Assembly: GCF_913773735.1 (NCBI RefSeq)
Contig: NZ_CAJYEB010000003.1
Span: 1-64,000, forward strand
Source of the DNA: an uncultured Massilia sp.
GTDB lineage: Bacteria > Pseudomonadota > Gammaproteobacteria > Burkholderiales > Burkholderiaceae_D
Reading direction: 5' to 3'
DNA: 64,000 nt
The notes under the pieces were generated by a model. It did no database searches. It was not told where the DNA came from and saw nothing but the letters and a program-made list of their open reading frames with translations. The position numbers and the translations under genes were made by a program. Below are positions 6,225-15,874 of this stretch, piece by piece. Every line of letters starts with the position of its first letter. Positions within the stretch are counted from its first letter, which is position 1.

Positions 6225-6252
6225 GCGCCTGCGCGCTCAGGCGCGCAGGCGC
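6225..6252 (-). terminator. Perfect 12-bp hairpin over the parB stop codon
   Basis: GCGCCTGCGCGC (6225-6236) and GCGCGCAGGCGC (6241-6252) are exact complements around the four-base loop TCAG, which contains the parB stop codon. There is no T run after it on the minus strand, so it is not a classical intrinsic terminator; it may slow ribosomes, stabilise the mRNA end or aid factor-dependent termination. Confidence 0.45.
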
Positions 6253-7118
6253 GCCAGCACGCTGTCGAGGATGTCGAGATCGGCGAAGTCGATGATCATC
6301 TGCCCGCCGCCCCTGGCGCCCATCTTGAACACGACCGGGGTCGCCAGCCGGTCGGACAGTTCCTCTTCCAGCCGGACGATGTCGCCCGACTTGTCCTTCT
6401 GGCGCCTGGCGGCCGCCGGCGCGTCCTGCTCTTCCAGTGCGCGCGCCACCACCTTCTCGGTCTCGCGCACCGACAGGCGCTTGGCGATCACCTGGTTCGC
6501 CAGCGCGATCTGGCTGGCGGCGTCGACCGCCAGCAGCGCGCGGGCGTGGCCCATGTCGATGTCGCCGGCCATCAGCATCGTCTGCACCGGCTGGGCCAGG
6601 TTCACCAGGCGCAGCAGGTTCGAGACGGCGCTGCGCGAGCGGCCGACGGCGCCGGCCGCCTGTTCGTGGGTGAAACCGAATTCGGCGATCAGGCGCGCGA
6701 TGCCCTGCGCCTCTTCGAGGGGATTGAGGTCCTCGCGCTGGATGTTCTCGATCAGCGCCATCGCGGCGGCGTTCTGGTCGTCCACGTCGCGCACCAGCAC
6801 CGGGATCTCGTCCAGTCCCGCCAGCTGGGCCGCGCGGAAGCGCCGTTCGCCGGCGATGATCTCGTAGCGCGCGTCCCCTGCCCCGTCGATCGGCCGCACC
6901 AGTACCGGCTGCATGATGCCCTGGGTCTTGATCGACGCGGCCAGCTCGGCCAGCGAGCCGTCGTCCATGCGCGTGCGCGGCTGGTACTTGCCGGCCTGCA
7001 CCTGATTCACCTTCAGCGTCGACGGCGCGCCGGACGGCGCCGCCGGCGTGTCGTCGGACGTCGCGCCGAGCAGCGCGTCGAGGCCACGGCCGAGCCCCTT
7101 GAGTTTCTTGGTTGCCAT
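6237..7118 (-). CDS. parB: Chromosome partitioning protein ParB
   Basis: Centromere-binding CTPase that loads at parS sites, spreads on DNA and recruits ParA and condensin near the origin. The 293-residue protein starts MATKKLKGLGRGLDALLG, the usual ParA-interacting N-terminus. It carries the CTP-binding motifs GERRFRAA and ENIQREDLNPLEEA, a central helix-turn-helix (AAGAVGRSRSAVSNLLRL) and a C-terminal dimer domain. It follows parA by 19 bases. Two parS sites lie at 10717 and 11884. Confidence 0.98.
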   Translation of the reverse strand: MATKKLKGLGRGLDALLGATSDDTPAAPSGAPSTLKVNQVQAGKYQPRTRMDDGSLAELAASIKTQGIMQPVLVRPIDGAGDARYEIIAGERRFRAAQLAGLDEIPVLVRDVDDQNAAAMALIENIQREDLNPLEEAQGIARLIAEFGFTHEQAAGAVGRSRSAVSNLLRLVNLAQPVQTMLMAGDIDMGHARALLAVDAASQIALANQVIAKRLSVRETEKVVARALEEQDAPAAARRQKDKSGDIVRLEEELSDRLATPVVFKMGARGGGQMIIDFADLDILDSVLARLRA

Positions 7119-7137: not shown

Positions 7138-7908
7138 TTATAGGGTCTTGATGCGCTCGACCATCTCGGCGCCGAAGGCGATGTACGCCTGGGCGCCCTT
7201 GGACGAGGGATCGAACACCACGCCGGGGATGCCGTAGGACGGCGCTTCCGCCAGCCGCACGTTGCGCGGGATGATGGTCTTGAACACCTTGTCGCCGAAA
7301 TGCTGCTCGAGCTGGCCCGAGACCTGCTGCGACAGCGTCATGCGCGGATCGAACATCACGCGCAGCAGGCCGATGATGCGCAGGTCGTGGTTCAGGTTGG
7401 CGTGCACCTTCTTGATCGTGTTGACCAGGTCGGACAGGCCCTCAAGCGCATAGTATTCGCACTGCATCGGGATGATGACCCCGTGCGCCGACACCAGCCC
7501 GTTCAGGGTCAGCATCGACAGCGCCGGCGGGCAGTCGATCAGGATGAAGTCGTAGTCGGCGTCCACCTTGGCCAGCGCGTCCTTCAGGCGCCGCTCGCGG
7601 TTTTCCAGCTCGACCATCTCGACCTCGGCGCCGGCCAGCTCGCGGTTGGCCGGCAGCACGTCGAAGCGCCCGGCCTCGCTGCGCAGGCGGCTGCCCTGGA
7701 CGTCGGCTTCACCCAGCAGCACCTCGTAGATCGACGAGGTCAGCCCGGCCTTGTTGATGCCGGCGCCCATGGTGGCGTTGCCCTGCGGGTCGAGGTCGAC
7801 CAGCAGCACGCGCTGGTCCAGCTTGGCCAGTCCCGCCGACAGGTTGACGCTGGTGGTGGTCTTGCCCACCCCGCCCTTCTGGTTAGCTACGCAAAATATT
7901 TTCGCCAT
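7138..7908 (-). CDS. parA: Chromosome partitioning ATPase ParA (Soj)
   Basis: Deviant-Walker ATPase that binds nucleoid DNA and pulls ParB-parS complexes, so separating new origins. The 256-residue protein has the Walker A motif KGGVGKTT at residues 11-18, the A-prime box LLVDLDPQGNATMG and Walker B FILIDCPP. It has no N-terminal helix-turn-helix extension, as is typical of chromosomal ParA. An AT-rich block of inverted repeats lies in the 135 bases between it and rsmG. Confidence 0.98.
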   Translation of the reverse strand: MAKIFCVANQKGGVGKTTTSVNLSAGLAKLDQRVLLVDLDPQGNATMGAGINKAGLTSSIYEVLLGEADVQGSRLRSEAGRFDVLPANRELAGAEVEMVELENRERRLKDALAKVDADYDFILIDCPPALSMLTLNGLVSAHGVIIPMQCEYYALEGLSDLVNTIKKVHANLNHDLRIIGLLRVMFDPRMTLSQQVSGQLEQHFGDKVFKTIIPRNVRLAEAPSYGIPGVVFDPSSKGAQAYIAFGAEMVERIKTL

Positions 7909-8043: not shown

Positions 8044-8697
8044 TCACGGCGCCGGCTCGACGAATACCAGGTGGCGTTCCGCGCCCAGCCTGGGCACCTG
8101 CAGCGGCTGCACCCCGCTCACGCGCCAGCTGGCCGGCACCCGCTCCTGCTCCTCCCTGGGCGCCGTGCCCTTGAGCGCGATGTAGCGCCCGCCCGGTGCC
8201 AGCAGGTGATGCGACCAGTCGATGAAATCGGACAGGTCGGCGAAGGCGCGCGAGGTAATGACGTCGAACCTGGCGCCCTCTTCCTTTTGCAGGTCCTGCA
8301 CCTTCATCGTGTGGACGGTGGCGTTCGCCAGGCCGAGTTGCGCCTTCACCTGGGTGAGGAACGCCGTCTTCTTGTGCACGGTGTCGATCATCGACACGGC
8401 CATGTCCGGCCTGACGATGGCCAGCACGATGCCGGGCAGGCCGCCACCGGAACCGACGTCCAGCACGTTCTTCGCGCCGGCGAACGCCGGCACGGCCGCC
8501 AGCGAATCGAGCAGGTGGTGGGTCACCATCTGCATCGGGTCGCGCAGCGACGTCAGGTTGTACACGCTGTTCCACTTGAACATCAGCGCCAGGTAATCCA
8601 GCAGTCGTTCCTGCTGGGCCGGCGTCACGTCCAGTGCCATCTCCTTGACGCCGTCGGCCAGTACCTGGCCCAGCGCGGCGCGGTCGAAATGCTTCAT
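8044..8697 (-). CDS. rsmG: 16S rRNA (guanine-N7) methyltransferase RsmG
   Basis: Methylates the N7 of G527 (E. coli numbering) of 16S rRNA using S-adenosylmethionine. The 217-residue protein contains the SAM-binding loop [13 protein letters not shown] at about residues 78-90 and the conserved ITSRAFADL block. The frame is open far upstream inside mnmG; the chosen ATG at 8697 overlaps the mnmG stop as ATGA, a sign of coupled translation, and gives the normal family length. Confidence 0.97.
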
Positions 8698-10628
8698 GCT
8701 GCGGATTCCTCGTTCGACACGCTGGCAAAGCCCTTGGCGCCGCGCTTCTTCAGGTGCACCAGCAGCAGCGAGATCGCCGCCGGGGTCACGCCGGAAATGC
8801 GCGATGCCTGGCCCAGCGTTTCCGGCCGTTGCTTGTCCAGCTTCTGGCGCACCTCGATCGACAGCGCCGCGATGTCCAGGTAGTCCAGGTTTTCCGGCAG
8901 CTTCAGGTTTTCGTAGTGGTCGTGGCGTTCCACCTCGCGCGCCTGGCGGTCGATGTAGCCCGAATATTTCAGCTGGATCTCGACCTGTTCCTTGACGGCC
9001 GGATCCTCGATGCCGGGGCCGGCCAGTTGCTGGCCGTCGGTGCCGGTCAGCGTGACCAGCTTGTCGTATTCGACGCCCGGACGGCGCAGCAGGTCGGCCA
9101 GGTTGTATTCGCGCTCGATGGCCTGGCCGATCACGCGTTCGGATTCGGCCGCCGCCAGGATGCGCGGATTGACCCAGGTCGACCGCAGGCGTTCCAGCTC
9201 GCGCGCGACGGCCTCGCGCTTGCGCTCGAACGCGTCCCATTGCACGTCGCCGACGACGCCCAGCTTGCGGCCGATTTCCGTCAGGCGCATGTCGGCATTG
9301 TCTTCGCGCAGGCTCAGGCGGTACTCGGCGCGGCTGGTGAACATCCGGTACGGTTCGGCCACGCCCTGCGTGGTGAGGTCGTCGACCAGCACGCCGAGAT
9401 AGGCTTCCGAGCGGCCCGGGGCCCAGGCCTCGCGGCCCTGGGTCTGCAGCGCCGCGTTGATGCCGGCGAGCATGCCCTGCGCCGCCGCTTCTTCGTAGCC
9501 GGTGGTGCCGTTGATCTGGCCGGCGAAGAACAGCCCGCCGATCGCCTTGGTTTCCAGCGAGGCCTTCAGGCCGCGCGGGTCGAAGTAATCGTATTCGATC
9601 GCATAGCCGGGACGCAGGATGAAGGCGTTTTCCAGGCCCTTCATCGAGCGCACCAGCGCCAGCTGCACGTCGAACGGCAGGCTGGTCGAGATCCCGTTCG
9701 GGTAGAACTCGTTGGTGGTCAAGCCTTCCGGCTCGAGGAAGATCTGGTGCGACTCCTTCGACGCGAAGCGGTGGATCTTGTCCTCGATCGATGGGCAGTA
9801 GCGCGGGCCGACGCCCTCGATCACGCCGGTGTACATCGGGCTGCGGTCCAGGCCGTTGCGGATGATGTCGTGCGTCTGCGCATTCGTGTGCGTCACCCAG
9901 CACGGCACCTGCTTCGGGTGCATCGCGGCATTACCCATATAGGAAAACACCGGGACCGGGTCGAGGTCGCCCGGCTGCTCGGTCATCGCCGAGAAGTCGA
10001 TGCTGCGGCCATCGATGCGCGGCGGCGTGCCGGTCTTCAGGCGGCCCTGCGGCAGCTTGAGTTCCTTCAGGCGGCTCGACAGCGACAGCGCCGGCGGATC
10101 GCCCGCGCGGCCGCCCGCGTAATTCTGCAGGCCGACGTGGATCTTCCCGTCGAGGAAGGTACCGGCGGTCAGCACGACGGCGCGCGCGCGAAAGCGCAGG
10201 CCGACCTGGGTCACGGCGCCGACGACGCGGTCGCCCTCGACCATCAGGTCGTCGACGGCCTGCTGGAACAGCCACAGGTTCGGCTGGTTTTCCAGGCGCG
10301 CGCGGATCGCCGCCTTGTACAGGACGCGGTCGGCCTGGGCACGGGTGGCGCGCACGGCTGGTCCCTTGGACGAGTTCAGGATGCGGAACTGGATACCGGC
10401 CTCGTCGGTGGCGATCGCCATCGCGCCGCCCATGGCGTCGACTTCCTTCACCAGGTGGCCCTTGCCGATGCCGCCGATCGACGGGTTGCAGGACATCGCG
10501 CCCAGGGTTTCGATATTGTGCGTGAGCAACAGAGTCTTCTGGCCCATGCGTGCGGACGCGAGTGCCGCTTCGGTGCCGGCATGGCCGCCGCCAACGACGA
10601 TCACGTCGAATTCTGTCGGAAATAGCAT
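8694..10628 (-). CDS. mnmG: tRNA uridine-5-carboxymethylaminomethyl modification enzyme MnmG (GidA)
   Basis: FAD-dependent enzyme that works with MnmE to modify the wobble uridine of several tRNAs. The 644-residue protein has the dinucleotide fold GGGHAG at residues 13-18, the family signature around [12 protein letters not shown] and the C-terminal [10 protein letters not shown] block. An upstream start at 10724 is possible, but [15 protein letters not shown] at 10628 matches the family N-terminus. It heads the rsmG-parA-parB run, the arrangement commonly found near bacterial origins. Confidence 0.97.
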
Positions 10629-10716
10629 GATGGAGTGTAGTGCGAGGAGAGTTAAGCGTGGATTATAGATTCTTTTTTCCGTGCGGCTCGAAAGCGGTTC
10701 GGAAAACGACAGATTT

Positions 10717-10732
10717 TGTTTCACGTGAAACC
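10717..10732. promoter_or_regulatory. parS site (one mismatch in the palindrome)
   Basis: TGTTTCACGTGAAACC matches the bacterial parS consensus at 15 of 16 bases. It lies upstream of mnmG, about 2.8 kb from parA, where ParB would load. Confidence 0.92.
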
Positions 10733-11883: not shown

Positions 11884-11899
11884 TGTTTCACGTGAAACA
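11884..11899. promoter_or_regulatory. parS site (perfect palindrome)
   Basis: TGTTTCACGTGAAACA is an exact match to the 16-base parS consensus. It lies in the 23-base gap between two convergent genes, 1,167 bases from the first parS site. Confidence 0.96.
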
Positions 11900-12750: not shown

Positions 12751-13584
12751 TCAGGACGGCAGGTGCGCCTCGCCCAGGAATGCCAGCAGCAAGGCGTTCA
12801 CCTTCTCGTGCGCCGTCAGTTGCAGCCAGTGGTCCGCGCCACGGATGCGTTCGAACCGGAATTCGCCTTCCACGTAATGCGCCGAGTCGCGCATCTGCTT
12901 CTCGCCCATCGCCGGATCGCGGTCGCTCCAGATTCCCATCACCGGCACCTTGATGCGCGAGTAGGTTTGCGGCAGCACGAGGCCGGCATTGGCGCGGTAA
13001 TAATTCAGCGCGGCCGTCAACCGGCCCGGCGCCGACAGTTCGCGTTTCCAGTGATCGGCCTGCCCGGGCTCGTCGGTGAACTGGCGCAGCATGAACCAGT
13101 CGCCGGCGCGCAGCACCTGTTCGGCGATGACGGGCAGGATGAAACCCAGCACATACGTCATGCGCAGGTACTGGAAGGGACCGGACCGGGCGATCGCGAG
13201 CGGATGGCCGACCGACAACGCCACCAGGCGATGCACGCGTTGCGGCGCCAGCGTCGCCACCTGCCAGCCGATCAGGCTGCCCCAATCGTGGCCGACGATG
13301 CATGCCTTGTCGATGTGCAGCGCATCGAGCAGGCCGAGGACGTCGCCGCGCAATTTGTCCAGCGTGTAATCGGCAATACCGCCCGGCGCATCGCTGCGGC
13401 CGTAGCCGCGCAAATCCGGCGCCAGCACGCGATAACCGGCCCCCGCCAGCGCATCGACCTGCTTGCGCCAGACCTGGTGGGTGTCGGGAAATCCGTGCAA
13501 CAACAAGACGGCCGGACCGTGCCCGGTCGTGGTGACATGCATGCGTATGCCGTTTACGTCCAGCATCAGGGAGTCGTCGATCAC
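12751..13584 (-). CDS. Alpha/beta hydrolase, epoxide hydrolase / haloalkane dehalogenase type
   Basis: The 277-residue protein has the oxyanion HGFP motif (residues 30-33), a nucleophile elbow GHDWGS with Asp100 in place of serine, the acid region GIWSDRDPA and the catalytic histidine in GADHWLQL. An aspartate nucleophile points to soluble epoxide hydrolases or haloalkane/haloacetate dehalogenases rather than esterases. The substrate is unknown. It is the last gene before the origin-like region, transcribed away from it. Confidence 0.88.
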   Translation of the reverse strand: MIDDSLMLDVNGIRMHVTTTGHGPAVLLLHGFPDTHQVWRKQVDALAGAGYRVLAPDLRGYGRSDAPGGIADYTLDKLRGDVLGLLDALHIDKACIVGHDWGSLIGWQVATLAPQRVHRLVALSVGHPLAIARSGPFQYLRMTYVLGFILPVIAEQVLRAGDWFMLRQFTDEPGQADHWKRELSAPGRLTAALNYYRANAGLVLPQTYSRIKVPVMGIWSDRDPAMGEKQMRDSAHYVEGEFRFERIRGADHWLQLTAHEKVNALLLAFLGEAHLPS

Positions 13585-13720
13585 GTCCTGCCTCCGTTTC
13601 GTCAGCGCCGCACCGTGTTGTCGTCCTGCGAGCGTCCGCGATGGCGCTCGCGACCCATTCTACGCGCCTCTTGCCGCTGTCCACGCACCCGATCCTGGGC
13701 GATGACGGGCCTTGCCGGGC

Positions 13721-13920
13721 TGTGGATAAGCCTATGCATATCCACAGGTACGAAATGTGGGGAAACCCGGATATCTCGACGATCGAAAAATTTATTCATT
13801 TTTTCCACTAGGAACATACATGGAAAACCCACCGGCTTGCACGCATCGTAAACGCTTGATCTTGTGGAAAAAACCCAGCTTATCCACAGATGAGTACCAC
13901 CGTTAACTACTATCATCATT
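13721..13920 (+). repeat. Origin module 1 (four DnaA boxes plus triplet run)
   Basis: TGTGGATAA (13721), ATATCCACA (13738), TGTGGAAAA (13863) and TTATCCACA (13880) form two inverted pairs. After a 16-base gap comes AACTACTATCATCATT (13905-13920), whose complement reads GAT GAT in the 3'-to-5' direction, as in DnaA-trio elements. A conserved CGTAAACGCTTGATC block precedes the third box. Confidence 0.8.
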
Positions 13921-14160
13921 CTGTATACAAGCTTTTGGTTGTAAACCTGGCGCCGTGCGGCGCGCCGGCGTTCGCGCAAAAAAAAATCGACTCCGGCCCT
14001 GCCGACGTCGATGCGACGGGAACGACGTCGACCACGCCGGATAGCCTTGACGATCCGTCGCCAGGCCGGCACGACGAACGCGTCGACGGTCGCTTCGATG
14101 GCCACTTCGACTACGCCGTCCACCCTGGAAACATCTTTTCGACGCCATTTCCCGCACGCC

Positions 14161-14358
14161 TGTGGACAAACCCTTGCATATCCACAGCACGGTATGTGCG
14201 AAACCGGCCGAGTTGGCCACCGCCAATTTTTTGTCCAGTTTTGCTCCAAGCCGGATACAAGGCTTGTCCAGCCGCTTCGACACCACGTAAACCCTTGAGC
14301 TTGTGGAAAAAAATCGGTTTATCCACAGTTCAGGGCGCGTTTACTACCACTACTATCC
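14161..14358 (+). repeat. Origin module 2 (four DnaA boxes plus triplet run)
   Basis: TGTGGACAA (14161), ATATCCACA (14178), TGTGGAAAA (14302) and TTATCCACA (14319) keep offsets of 17, 141 and 158 bases, against 17, 142 and 159 in module 1. Twelve bases further lies TTTACTACCACTACTATCC (14340-14358). The conserved CGTAAACCCTTGAGC block is again in front of the third box. An AT-rich stretch (14372-14394) follows. Confidence 0.8.
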
Positions 14359-14763
14359 TTTCTTTCTATCCAAGTTAACTAATATAAAAAAAAGCGCTCG
14401 CTACGCTCGCGCCAGGACATCAACTCGACAAATACCCTAGCCGCAAAGCAAAGGCAGTCGGTTCGCAAAAAAAATCGTCTACAGGAACAAGGCCGATCTC
14501 AGGCCTGCATCCCCAGGCAGGCCAGTTCGACGCAAAAAAAAAGCGCCGCCACCGTCTGCGAACGGCAGCAAGCGTCAACACGGTGCAAACGCTCGACGGT
14601 CTACAGGAAAACGACGACGCCCACGTCCAGGCTGCAAAACAAGACAGCGTCATGCATGCCCCTGTCGTTCCGGCAAGGACAGCCGTAGCGACCGCTGCTG
14701 GCGGGATGGATGACCTGCCAGCCATGCTATGCAGGCAAGAAAAGACGCGCGGTCGGCAGCGTC

Positions 14764-14957
14764 TGTGGAAAAGCGCCTGCATATCCACAGGAGCAAGTGT
14801 GCAAAACCGGGCTGTTTTCTGGAAAACCGTTTTTTGTCCAACATCGGTCCCGCATCGATACAATGCTTTTCCAGCACTTCCGGCAACACGTAAACCGTTG
14901 ACGCTGTAGACAAATCCCGTCTTATCCACAGCAACATCGACGTTTACTATCACTACC
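14764..14957 (+). repeat. Origin module 3 (four DnaA boxes plus triplet run)
   Basis: TGTGGAAAA (14764), ATATCCACA (14781), the degenerate TGTAGACAA (14905) and TTATCCACA (14922) have offsets 17, 141 and 158, identical to module 2. Twelve bases on is TTTACTATCACTACC (14943-14957), then the most AT-rich stretch of the region (14958-14993), a plausible unwinding element. Confidence 0.8.
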
Positions 14958-15058
14958 AGTTTTTATATATACCTACGTTTACTAAAACAAAAAGACCGTG
15001 AACAAGGTGCACAAGCCTTGAAAAACGGTTTTCCAGACCATCCAGGACGATCGAACAC

Positions 15059-15874
15059 ATGCGACTAGGGATCATCAGCGCGTTGCACGAAGAACAGCAG
15101 GGGCTCGTGGAGGCCATGCAGAGGCCCTACAAGCTCATCCACGGCATGCGCGAGTACGTTGTCGGACACCTCTGGGAAATCGACGCTGTGTGCGTCCTAT
15201 CGCGTATTGGCAAGGTTGCTGCGGCAATGACAGCCACGACGCTTGTGGAGAAGTTCGGTGTTACCCACATCCTGTTTACGGGAGTCGCCGGTGCCGGCGA
15301 TGCGGCGATCCGTGTCGGCGACGTCGTCGTGGCCGAATCGCTGGTCCAGCACGACATGGATGCGACGCCGCTGTTTCCGCGCTACGAAGTGCCGTTGACG
15401 GGGCTGACGCACTTCCTGTCCGACCGCCGGATGGCCGTGCACCTGCTCGAGGCGGCGCAGCGTTTCCTGGCGCACGACTTCGCCGCGGCCATCGAGGCGC
15501 AGGAACGGGCCGCATTCGCCCTCCAGCAGCCGCGGGTGCACCGCGGGCTGGTCGCCAGTGCCGACGAGTTCGTGAAGGGCCGGGAGCGCGTACGGGCCCT
15601 CCACGCGGCCTTGCCGGGCCTGTTGGCGGTGGAGATGGAGGGCGCGGCGGTGGCGCAGGTGTGTTTCGAGCTCGGCATCCCGTTCGGCGTGATCCGGACG
15701 ATTTCCGACAATGCCAACGAAAACGCGGCCACGGATTTCATGCGCTTCGTGAAATCCGTGGCCGCGCGGTATGCGTTCCACATCGTCAGGCAGTTCTGCC
15801 TGGGGTGGCGGGACGGGCTGCCCGCCGCCGGTGCCGCCCCGGCTCAGGCCAGCAGGGACTCGGCCGGCACGTAG
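15059..15874 (+). CDS. mtnN: 5'-methylthioadenosine/S-adenosylhomocysteine nucleosidase
   Basis: Cleaves adenine from methylthioadenosine and S-adenosylhomocysteine, recycling by-products of methylation and polyamine synthesis. The 271-residue protein starts MRLGIISALHEEQQGL and has the nucleosidase blocks LFTGVAGAGDAAIRVGDVVV and VEMEGAAVAQVC, plus the catalytic aspartate in TISDNANENA. It is longer than the E. coli enzyme (232 residues) through a central insert and a C-terminal tail that overlaps the end of ald. It starts right after the origin-like region. A related nucleoside phosphorylase is the alternative. Confidence 0.85.
   Translation: MRLGIISALHEEQQGLVEAMQRPYKLIHGMREYVVGHLWEIDAVCVLSRIGKVAAAMTATTLVEKFGVTHILFTGVAGAGDAAIRVGDVVVAESLVQHDMDATPLFPRYEVPLTGLTHFLSDRRMAVHLLEAAQRFLAHDFAAAIEAQERAAFALQQPRVHRGLVASADEFVKGRERVRALHAALPGLLAVEMEGAAVAQVCFELGIPFGVIRTISDNANENAATDFMRFVKSVAARYAFHIVRQFCLGWRDGLPAAGAAPAQASRDSAGT

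Follow-up and report, generated by a model that had tools for sequence, protein, structure and literature searches.

A probable replication origin in Massilia composed of three paralogous DnaA-box modules with GTWWAC sites at their putative unwinding elements

The 64,000-nt stretch of DNA analysed here (the window, to which all positions refer unless stated otherwise) is the start of contig NZ_CAJYEB010000003.1 from an uncultured Massilia sp. (GCF_913773735.1); the whole contig spans 216 kb and the genome (G000) 5.88 Mb. A 1.47-kb gap between two divergent genes, a hydrolase gene and a nucleosidase gene, is occupied by three tandem modules of ~225 bp each. Every module holds two inverted pairs of DnaA boxes of the type TGTGGNNAA-N8-NTATCCACA, with the boxes of a pair 17 bp apart, ~115 bp between the two pairs, and a weaker fifth box at offset 34-35. 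The last (end) box is an exact TTATCCACA in all three modules and is followed on its 3' side by a short spacer, GTTAAC or GTTTAC, CTACTA-like triplets, and an AT-rich stretch. We regard this region as the likely chromosomal origin (oriC) of a Massilia-type bacterium, consisting of three paralogous modules that were relocated and amplified and whose unwinding sites are methylation targets.

All three modules lie on the plus strand. Module 1 (13717..13946), on the mnmG side, has main boxes at 13721(-), 13738(+), 13863(-), and 13880(+), which gives offsets of 0, 17, 142, and 159, a weak box at 13756(-), and a trio-like run and AT-rich stretch at its end. Module 2 (14156..14385) has boxes at 14161(-), 14178(+), 14302(-), and 14319(+), with a weak box at 14195(-); module 3 (14759..14988), on the nucleosidase side, has boxes at 14764(-), 14781(+), 14905(-), and 14922(+), and a fifth at 14798(-, TTTTGCACA). 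Both share main offsets of 0, 17, 141, and 158 and end in a trio-like run; box 14905 differs from TGTGGATAA by two mismatches. In the module tree described below, module 1 belongs to an alpha lineage and modules 2 and 3 to a beta lineage. A first-pass annotation, made from the letters of the window, had proposed a triplicated origin module with boxes at these offsets and an exact end box. The modules proved real, and boxes were found at these places in all three.

The pattern is far beyond chance. Matches to TTATNCACA with at most one mismatch number 22 in the window against 9.57 expected (maximum of 100 shuffles, 16), and 12 of the 22 fall within the modules. The inverted-pair pattern has five exact matches in the 5.88-Mb genome, all at this region, and its reversed control has none; the double-pair pattern has three matches here, with none for the reversed control in 392 genomes. 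Clusters of at least three boxes (at most one mismatch) per 400 bp are found in the 216-kb contig only at these modules. A plasmid origin or mobile element was rejected, as no match was found in the plasmid collection, and so was an RNA gene, for which a match in Rfam was absent. Promoter and terminator scans of the region stayed close to chance level.

The genes flanking the gap are both transcribed away from the presumed origin and were assigned with Pfam: an alpha/beta hydrolase gene on the left (12751..13584, -) and a phosphorylase superfamily gene on the right (15059..15874, +), the latter presumably encoding a methylthioadenosine/S-adenosylhomocysteine (MTA/SAH) nucleosidase-like protein. 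Further left lie parB (6237..7118, -; ParB_N, HTH_ParB, and ParB_C), parA (7138..7908, -; AAA_31/CbiA), and mnmG, or gidA (8694..10724, -; GIDA), whose true start may fall inside the frame. A parS site at 11884..11899 matches the pattern used perfectly, and a parS-like site at 10717..10732 has one mismatch. An origin-type neighbourhood (parAB, two parS, mnmG) is present at the modules, and the oriC context first read from these genes was borne out by the Pfam assignments of ParA, ParB, and MnmG.

A further inverted DnaA-box pair lies inside the nucleosidase reading frame (15244..15269, +). Of the 37 genus genomes, 35 have it with at most four mismatches to the consensus used, and the third codon positions over it are largely held (GTT for Val in 35/35) while the codons on either side vary. 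This pair may be a fourth, coding-embedded origin element. In the same gene, third codon positions are also unusually invariant over 15173-15217 (for example in Glu, Ile, Asp, and Cys codons, 35/35), a stretch with no known motif. The codon comparison covers 35 of the 37 genus genomes; the nucleosidase anchor was not found in G008 and G029.

Several shorter sequences recur in the modules. Runs of seven to nine A followed by TCG or GCG were returned by a repeat search within and between modules (13979, 14306, 14467, 14535). CACAG overlaps most boxes (e.g., 13742-13747 and 13884-13889); among 153 modules from five genera, G follows the second box in 142 and the end box in 115 of the 147 recognised. 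This comparison used 152 of the 153 modules, one without a recognisable first box being left out. The weak box core TGTGC(A/G) at module offset 34 (e.g., 14195 and 14798) resembles the 7-mer CTGTGCA, a recurrent sequence reported from Burkholderia cenocepacia origins with no function attached (PMC4948915, PMC7364216).

The modules are conserved throughout the genus. BLAST against 61 genomes gave matches in all 37 of the genus and in 0/24 from other families. By profile search, 34 of the 37 carry three modules and three carry two, a count made with a profile of 69 modules from these same 37 genomes and thus seeded from the genomes it counted; the comparison with relatives that had been proposed as a check came out in favour of three copies. 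The distance from first to last box is 157-159 bp in 149 of the 153 modules, and the distance between module starts within the genus varies from 262 to 1692 bp, so that internal geometry appears to be constrained and inter-module spacing not. The upper extreme is genome G033, where modules 1 and 2 are 1692 bp apart as compared with at most 779 bp in the other 36 genomes, which suggests that something has been inserted into the origin there. G002 and G015 each have one of their two modules inverted, and the pair stands back to back with the unwinding ends outward. Across 47 aligned modules from the five genera, invariant columns include the box cores, G186, T187, A190, and C191, followed by A193, A196, A199, and A202.

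The first-pass annotation had also claimed that box spacing is held. The distances bear this out. Box 3, however, is poorly conserved: within two mismatches it is found in 11/34 first, 31/34 second, and 31/34 third modules of the genus. The end box is perfect in 18/34 first and 33/34 second modules. When only full sets were counted strictly, seven of the 37 genomes had three modules, 13 had two, 16 had one, and one had none; the window's own three modules all pass. With box 3 lost from most first modules the copies are not equal, a point that tells against an origin of three paralogous modules, and the decay of module 1 in many species suggests that the modules have unequal roles. One module could be the working origin, with the other two serving as DnaA-binding reservoirs for titration or timing that were left from duplication; datA and DARS are titration or timing sites of this kind. 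The 23 of 34 first modules without box 3, their often imperfect end boxes, the low strict count, and the better preservation of module 2, whose boxes are the best kept, all agree with such reservoirs. The unwinding run and GTWWAC are nevertheless kept, and a titration site needs neither. We consider this a possible explanation, if a somewhat doubtful one.

In a tree of the 153 modules, the first modules of all five genera form the alpha group (support 0.81) and the last modules of Massilia, g28, g36, and Janthinobacterium form the beta group (0.84). Modules 2 and 3 of the genus both fall in beta, the extra copy of g28 falls in alpha, and the second modules of Janthinobacterium, Undibacterium, and G029 lie outside both. 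The first modules of 34 genus genomes make up one group (0.78), which clusters with the first modules of the four other genera (0.81), and within two subclades modules 2 and 3 group by position, module 3 of G012 and G018 being the exceptions. The sequences are short and some supports low, which makes the fine branching unreliable; as a whole the tree is best read as old lineages with repeated duplication. It is highly improbable that the triplication is a recent, local, and meaningless event. Such an event would fit the similarity of the copies (over 102 nt, module 1 is 68% and module 3 71% identical to module 2) and the differences in copy number between lineages, yet it is contradicted by the position groups and by the retention of three modules in 34/37 genomes.

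Beyond the genus, an exact double-pair scan of one genome per species (84,980 species) returned 77 stretches, which come only from Massilia, Telluria, Janthinobacterium, Undibacterium, Oxalobacteraceae, one Herbaspirillum, and metagenome-assembled genomes labelled Burkholderiales, Burkholderiaceae, or Pseudomonadota. The family was sampled as GTDB group f1 (44 genera, 155 genomes; named members Massilia, Telluria, Janthinobacterium, and Undibacterium), which we take to be the Oxalobacteraceae from these members, and the label Burkholderiaceae is therefore not used. A sequence-only covariance model built from the 47-module alignment matched 142/155 family genomes and 41/44 genera under the stricter filters applied to searches over more than 40 genomes (the 155 of the family and 97 of other families). 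With one genome per genus and looser filters it matched 40/40, although g31 and g65 only at E about 0.004. Within about 3 kb, 24 of the 40 genera have two or three modules, 14 have one, and two (g31, g65) have none by the local profile; two modules face in opposite directions in six of the 24 multi-module genera (g27, g40, g42, g47, g55, g63).

Bacterial origins are usually described with one unwinding site, and the triplication had initially been called unusual on the grounds that most origins have one. In this family that statement does not hold, two or three modules being the commoner state. The finding is thus larger than first stated: a multi-module origin in 24 of 40 sampled genera is a sound result and no one-genome oddity. 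A literature search found no description of multi-module origins, within a coverage that leaves out most subscription journals and preprints.

The putative unwinding element follows the end box on the plus strand of each module, at 13902..13920 in module 1 (GTTAAC; A at 13906, 13909, 13912, 13915, and 13918), 14339..14357 in module 2 (GTTTAC; A at 14343, 14346, 14349, 14352, and 14355), and 14942..14960 in module 3 (GTTTAC; A at 14946, 14949, 14952, 14955, and 14958). The other strand reads 3'-NNT-5' five times in all three. The published rule for DnaA-trios demands at least three consecutive 3'-NAN-5' at most 16 bp from a box with at most two mismatches (PMC8287927). Against the origin reading, and against the DnaA-trio-like label of the first-pass annotation, this rule fails in the window, where the runs are 1, 2, and 2 in modules 1-3; a period-3 T on that strand is conserved instead. 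Runs of at least three occur in a fraction of 0.405 of modules from the five genera as compared with 0.530 of shuffles, and in 0.625 as compared with 0.458 in a wider sample; runs of at least five in the wider family reach 0.312 against 0.055 of the control. The strict rule, unenriched in the five genera, was dropped as support.

The period-3 signal is much stronger. An A recurs at least five times with period 3 on the top strand in 86.9% of the 153 modules and in 2.9% of shuffles. Within the genus this is true of 33/34 first, 33/34 second, and 18/34 third modules; several third modules have a one-base slip in the run (TATCTACTACC). The commonest triplets are, in order, TTA/TAA, CTA, TCA/CTA/TTA, CTA, and CTA/CCA, and across the wider family plain CTACTACTA, which corresponds to 3'-GAT-5' repeats, is the more frequent form of the run. 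Judged by its letters, the run looks like a drifted trio element with the third base fixed.

The closest known arrangement is the basal unwinding system (BUS) of Bacillus subtilis and many other bacteria, in which a strong DnaA box, a spacer (published as at most 16 bp, with a peak at 10-13 bp), and a run of DnaA-trios follow each other on the same strand (PMC8287927). The box before the triplets is the exact TTATCCACA in all three window modules, and the longest NTN run stands at a 13-bp spacer in 77/153 modules, among them window modules 2 and 3; in module 1 the longest NTN run is a single triplet with a spacer of 1. Since the box and spacer fit and the trio rule fails, we describe the element as one that would work like a BUS and do not file it as one. 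It differs from a BUS in having two or three modules per origin and, in the window, triplets that are not 3'-NAN-5' three times over and whose third base (T) is invariant. The published program screens BUS candidates until more than 99% of genomes have a single one (PMC8287927), and multiple modules would consequently go unreported.

On the other side of the end box lies a candidate site for IHF. A sequence with at most one mismatch to WATCARNNNNTTR, which we take to be the IHF consensus, starts 31-40 bp 5' of the end box in 109 of the 153 modules, within one 10-bp bin, as compared with 5.4% of shuffled stretches and 1.05% of the window background. In the window, read by eye on the minus strand, the site in module 1 (13849..13861) has one mismatch and the corresponding places in modules 2 and 3 (14288-14300 and 14891-14903) have two each.

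GTWWAC sites are concentrated in the modules: four in module 1 (13848, 13902, 13923, and 13941; span 13848..13946), three in module 2 (14287, 14339, and 14374; 14287..14379), and three in module 3 (14890, 14942, and 14977; 14890..14982). The ten sites in 13700-15060 compare with eight in the other 62.6 kb of the window, and with a mean of 1.35 and a maximum of 6 in 2000 first-order Markov runs. In genome G027, 15 of the 104 sites in 580 kb sit within 1.4 kb at the modules. One site starts 11-13 bp 3' of the end box in 147/153 modules; its end is the start of the triplet run, the motif overlapping the first triplet, and further sites usually flank the run. Its middle letters vary (GTTAAC, GTTTAC), and its G, T, A, and C are invariant in the 47-row alignment. 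GTWWAC is the target of an orphan adenine methyltransferase reported to be conserved across the Burkholderiaceae (PMC5390034), and in B. cenocepacia both GTWWAC and CACAG are methylated at origins (PMC7364216).

The genome of the window has a single N6_N4_Mtase gene, between frames read as HisD and HisC; the same neighbours were seen in one genome each of g64 and g57. Its product is 69% identical, over 96% of the query, to that of a B. cenocepacia gene that sits on a chromid with TrpB-like and TrpA-like frames on its two sides, and BCAM0992, the GTWWAC enzyme of that species, is described at the trpB-trpA locus (PMC7364216). A relative at E<1e-100 is present in 31 of the 40 sampled genera (g67 counted), and a match at E<=1e-20 in 126/155 genomes. 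Presence of the enzyme and of the motif coincide. A sample of 64 modules was taken from genera other than this one and its closest relatives, with a floor of 20 bits that left G132 and G100 unrepresented. Where the genome encodes the enzyme, GTWWAC lies at most 34 bp 3' of the end box in 51 of 56 modules (30 genomes, 26 genera); where it does not, this is true of 0/7 modules (seven genera). The one module from g67 also lacks the motif.

Some of these data weigh against a methylation role. The GTWWAC specificity of the enzyme in this genome is presumed from sequence identity; g67, whose enzyme is only 66% identical, has no GTWWAC, and five of the 56 modules with the enzyme lack the site. Of the nine enzyme-less genera, six (g33, g35, g44, g53, g58, g60) have, like g67, a single module directly between dnaA and dnaN. 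A DnaA tree was made of 33 of the 34 proteins intended (G085 was missed); it covers 31/40 genera, g35 not among them. In this tree g33, g44, g53, g58, g60, and g67 form one group (support 1.0), and the enzyme-less genera of this group were therefore counted as one event. Genus g29 is nested among enzyme carriers (sister g48, 0.88), has the enzyme in 0/5 genomes, and has no GTWWAC in the module read (G064); this lineage has apparently lost both. The association consequently amounts to one deep split and one nested loss.

GTWWAC conservation could then be a by-product of the unwinding sequence (GTTAACTACTA), unrelated to methylation. Motif and first triplet overlap, A/T would be expected at the middle letters in any unwinding element, and the enzyme split is largely the single phylogenetic event just described. 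Lineages lacking the enzyme nevertheless keep the triplet run without the motif: g35, g44, g58, and g60 read ATTAACTACTA where others read GTTAACTACTA, and the remaining ones differ more. Together with the coincident absence in g29 and the clustering of GTWWAC sites away from the run as well, this makes a by-product unlikely.

The modules are remote from dnaA, which lies on another contig here and about 263-390 kb from the modules in six near-complete genus genomes; a scan of four dnaA loci found nothing resembling a module. The single-contig genomes G027, G107, G085, and G087 (L076, L352, L364, and L350) are numbered from dnaA, with the modules elsewhere, at an offset of about 287 kb in G027 and 363 kb in G107. 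The distance from dnaA was absent from the first-pass annotation, as were the GTWWAC sites and the IHF-like site.

Strand asymmetry weighs against the modules as the origin: its switch lies 35-190 kb off, in the direction of dnaA. We used FtsK-orienting polar sequences (KOPS; GGGHAGGG), as has been done for B. cenocepacia (PMC4948915). Their strand switch in G027 falls at 98-139 kb, nearer to dnaA (base 1) than to the cluster (286.8-287.9 kb); its support interval, 82-274 kb, ends about 13 kb short of the cluster and begins about 81 kb beyond dnaA. For G032 the switch is at 3.395 Mb (interval 3.354-3.399), with the modules at 3.433 and dnaA at 3.169; here the interval misses the cluster by 34 kb and dnaA by about 184 kb, and the point estimate is 38 kb from the cluster. 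Agreement of KOPS orientation with an origin at the cluster as compared with dnaA is 116 versus 107 of 144 in G027, and only 36 versus 35 of 43 in G032. All six KOPS in the window are on the minus strand, even the five right of the cluster, which would be expected on plus, and on the G000 contig plus-strand KOPS dominate only from about 118 kb, with a gene-strand minimum at 127 kb. The cumulative gene strand of G027 has its minimum at 252 kb, 35 kb from the cluster at 287 kb, and GC skew at third codon positions (GC3) has its minimum at 36 kb and a second low near 242 kb. GC skew proved too weak as an origin locator. KOPS were also set aside as a decisive locator: samples of 20 kb seemed exact, denser data shifted the switch from the cluster, and they were not used as proof. 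A skew switch elsewhere, named at the outset as evidence to the contrary, is therefore partly realised, with KOPS and gene-strand switches tens of kb to about 190 kb off towards dnaA. The asymmetry signals place a switch somewhere between the modules and dnaA and are no proof of the modules.

These switches, by KOPS in G027, G032, and the G000 contig and by gene strand in G027, would suit modules that are DnaA-regulated or partition-linked sites, with the true origin tens of kb to about 190 kb towards dnaA. We think this quite improbable. The rest of the 216-kb G000 contig holds no comparable box cluster. Over 580 kb of G027 there is just one further cluster of at least three boxes; it has three (94166-94463) and is near that genome's estimated KOPS switch. 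It is at the modules that trio-like runs, parS, and mnmG are found. The case for the modules as the origin is made by the absence of another strong box cluster, the gene neighbourhood, and the conserved architecture, and on this reading forks would start at the cluster itself, and not up to tens of kb or more from it.

The modules resemble known origins in several respects. In E. coli oriC, TTATCCACA faces the unwinding element, with an IHF site just behind it and more boxes beyond, in about 245 bp near mnmG and with methylation sites inside. The module layout is alike, with candidate IHF and methylation sites, and differs in the three copies, in GTWWAC in place of GATC, and in inverted box pairs at 17-bp spacing. 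In bipartite origins, box clusters lie on both sides of a gene and share one unwinding element, whereas each Massilia cluster has its own. Such origins (B. subtilis, Helicobacter pylori; PMC4403523) are alike in having more than one DnaA-box cluster. The origin of B. cenocepacia chromosome 1, compared by description only, shares the GTWWAC and CACAG methylation motifs and has a recurrent CTGTGCA, comparable to TGTGCA at offset 34 of many modules, and module structure is not reported in the available parts of its descriptions (PMC4948915, PMC7364216). Dam/SeqA of E. coli and CcrM of Caulobacter, discussed in PMC5390034, likewise combine adenine methylation sites in the origin with an orphan enzyme, and differ in motif and enzyme.

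Outside the family, 43/97 genomes of other families of the order match the module model at E<=0.001, mostly with one weak match. Five of them stand 1.2-1.7 kb into single-contig genomes, a place that would be just after dnaA if numbering starts at dnaA. The ancestral state was probably one module in the dnaA-dnaN gap; the origin would have moved out of this gap and then been amplified, with relocation, enzyme, and amplification all presumably arising later in the family.

What the sequence shows directly is how the modules are built, how many there are, that they are conserved, and that their GTWWAC sites go with the methyltransferase. Beyond this, a mechanism can be proposed that draws on established knowledge of DnaA, IHF, and Dam/SeqA. 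DnaA would dock on the inverted pair and weak third box at one end of a module and, at the opposite end, on one box or two. The IHF-like site would bend the DNA back so that both DnaA groups could hold the opened strand, and the end box TTATCCACA would hand DnaA onto the period-3 strand, where the strands would open and the helicase be loaded. Passage of the fork would leave GTWWAC hemimethylated, marking modules that have just fired, and re-opening could be delayed. We know of no SeqA-like reader for this origin, and no search aimed at one was made. An IHF loop-back model for E. coli oriC is named in PMC10225481.

The three modules may provide redundancy, dose-dependent titration of DnaA, or a division of labour. 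For the Oxalobacteraceae in general we tentatively propose, at close to even chances, a relocated multi-module oriC whose two or three complete unwinding modules behave like a small gene family, with tandem duplication, inversion, and decay, and in which GTWWAC methylation takes the Dam/SeqA role. Start sites within about 1 kb could fire alternatively or together, and opposite-facing modules could each supply one fork with its helicase. A set of two or three paralogous sites that has lasted over the lifetime of several genera raises the questions of which one opens, whether they compete, and how two helicases are shared. The module model offers candidate origin coordinates for this family, some of whose finished genomes start their numbering at a dnaA gene hundreds of kb off (G027, G107). 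Most surprising is that nearly every module has methylation sites at its putative unwinding element, which are absent where the enzyme is absent, and these GTWWAC sites suggest a testable role in replication timing for a widespread orphan methyltransferase.

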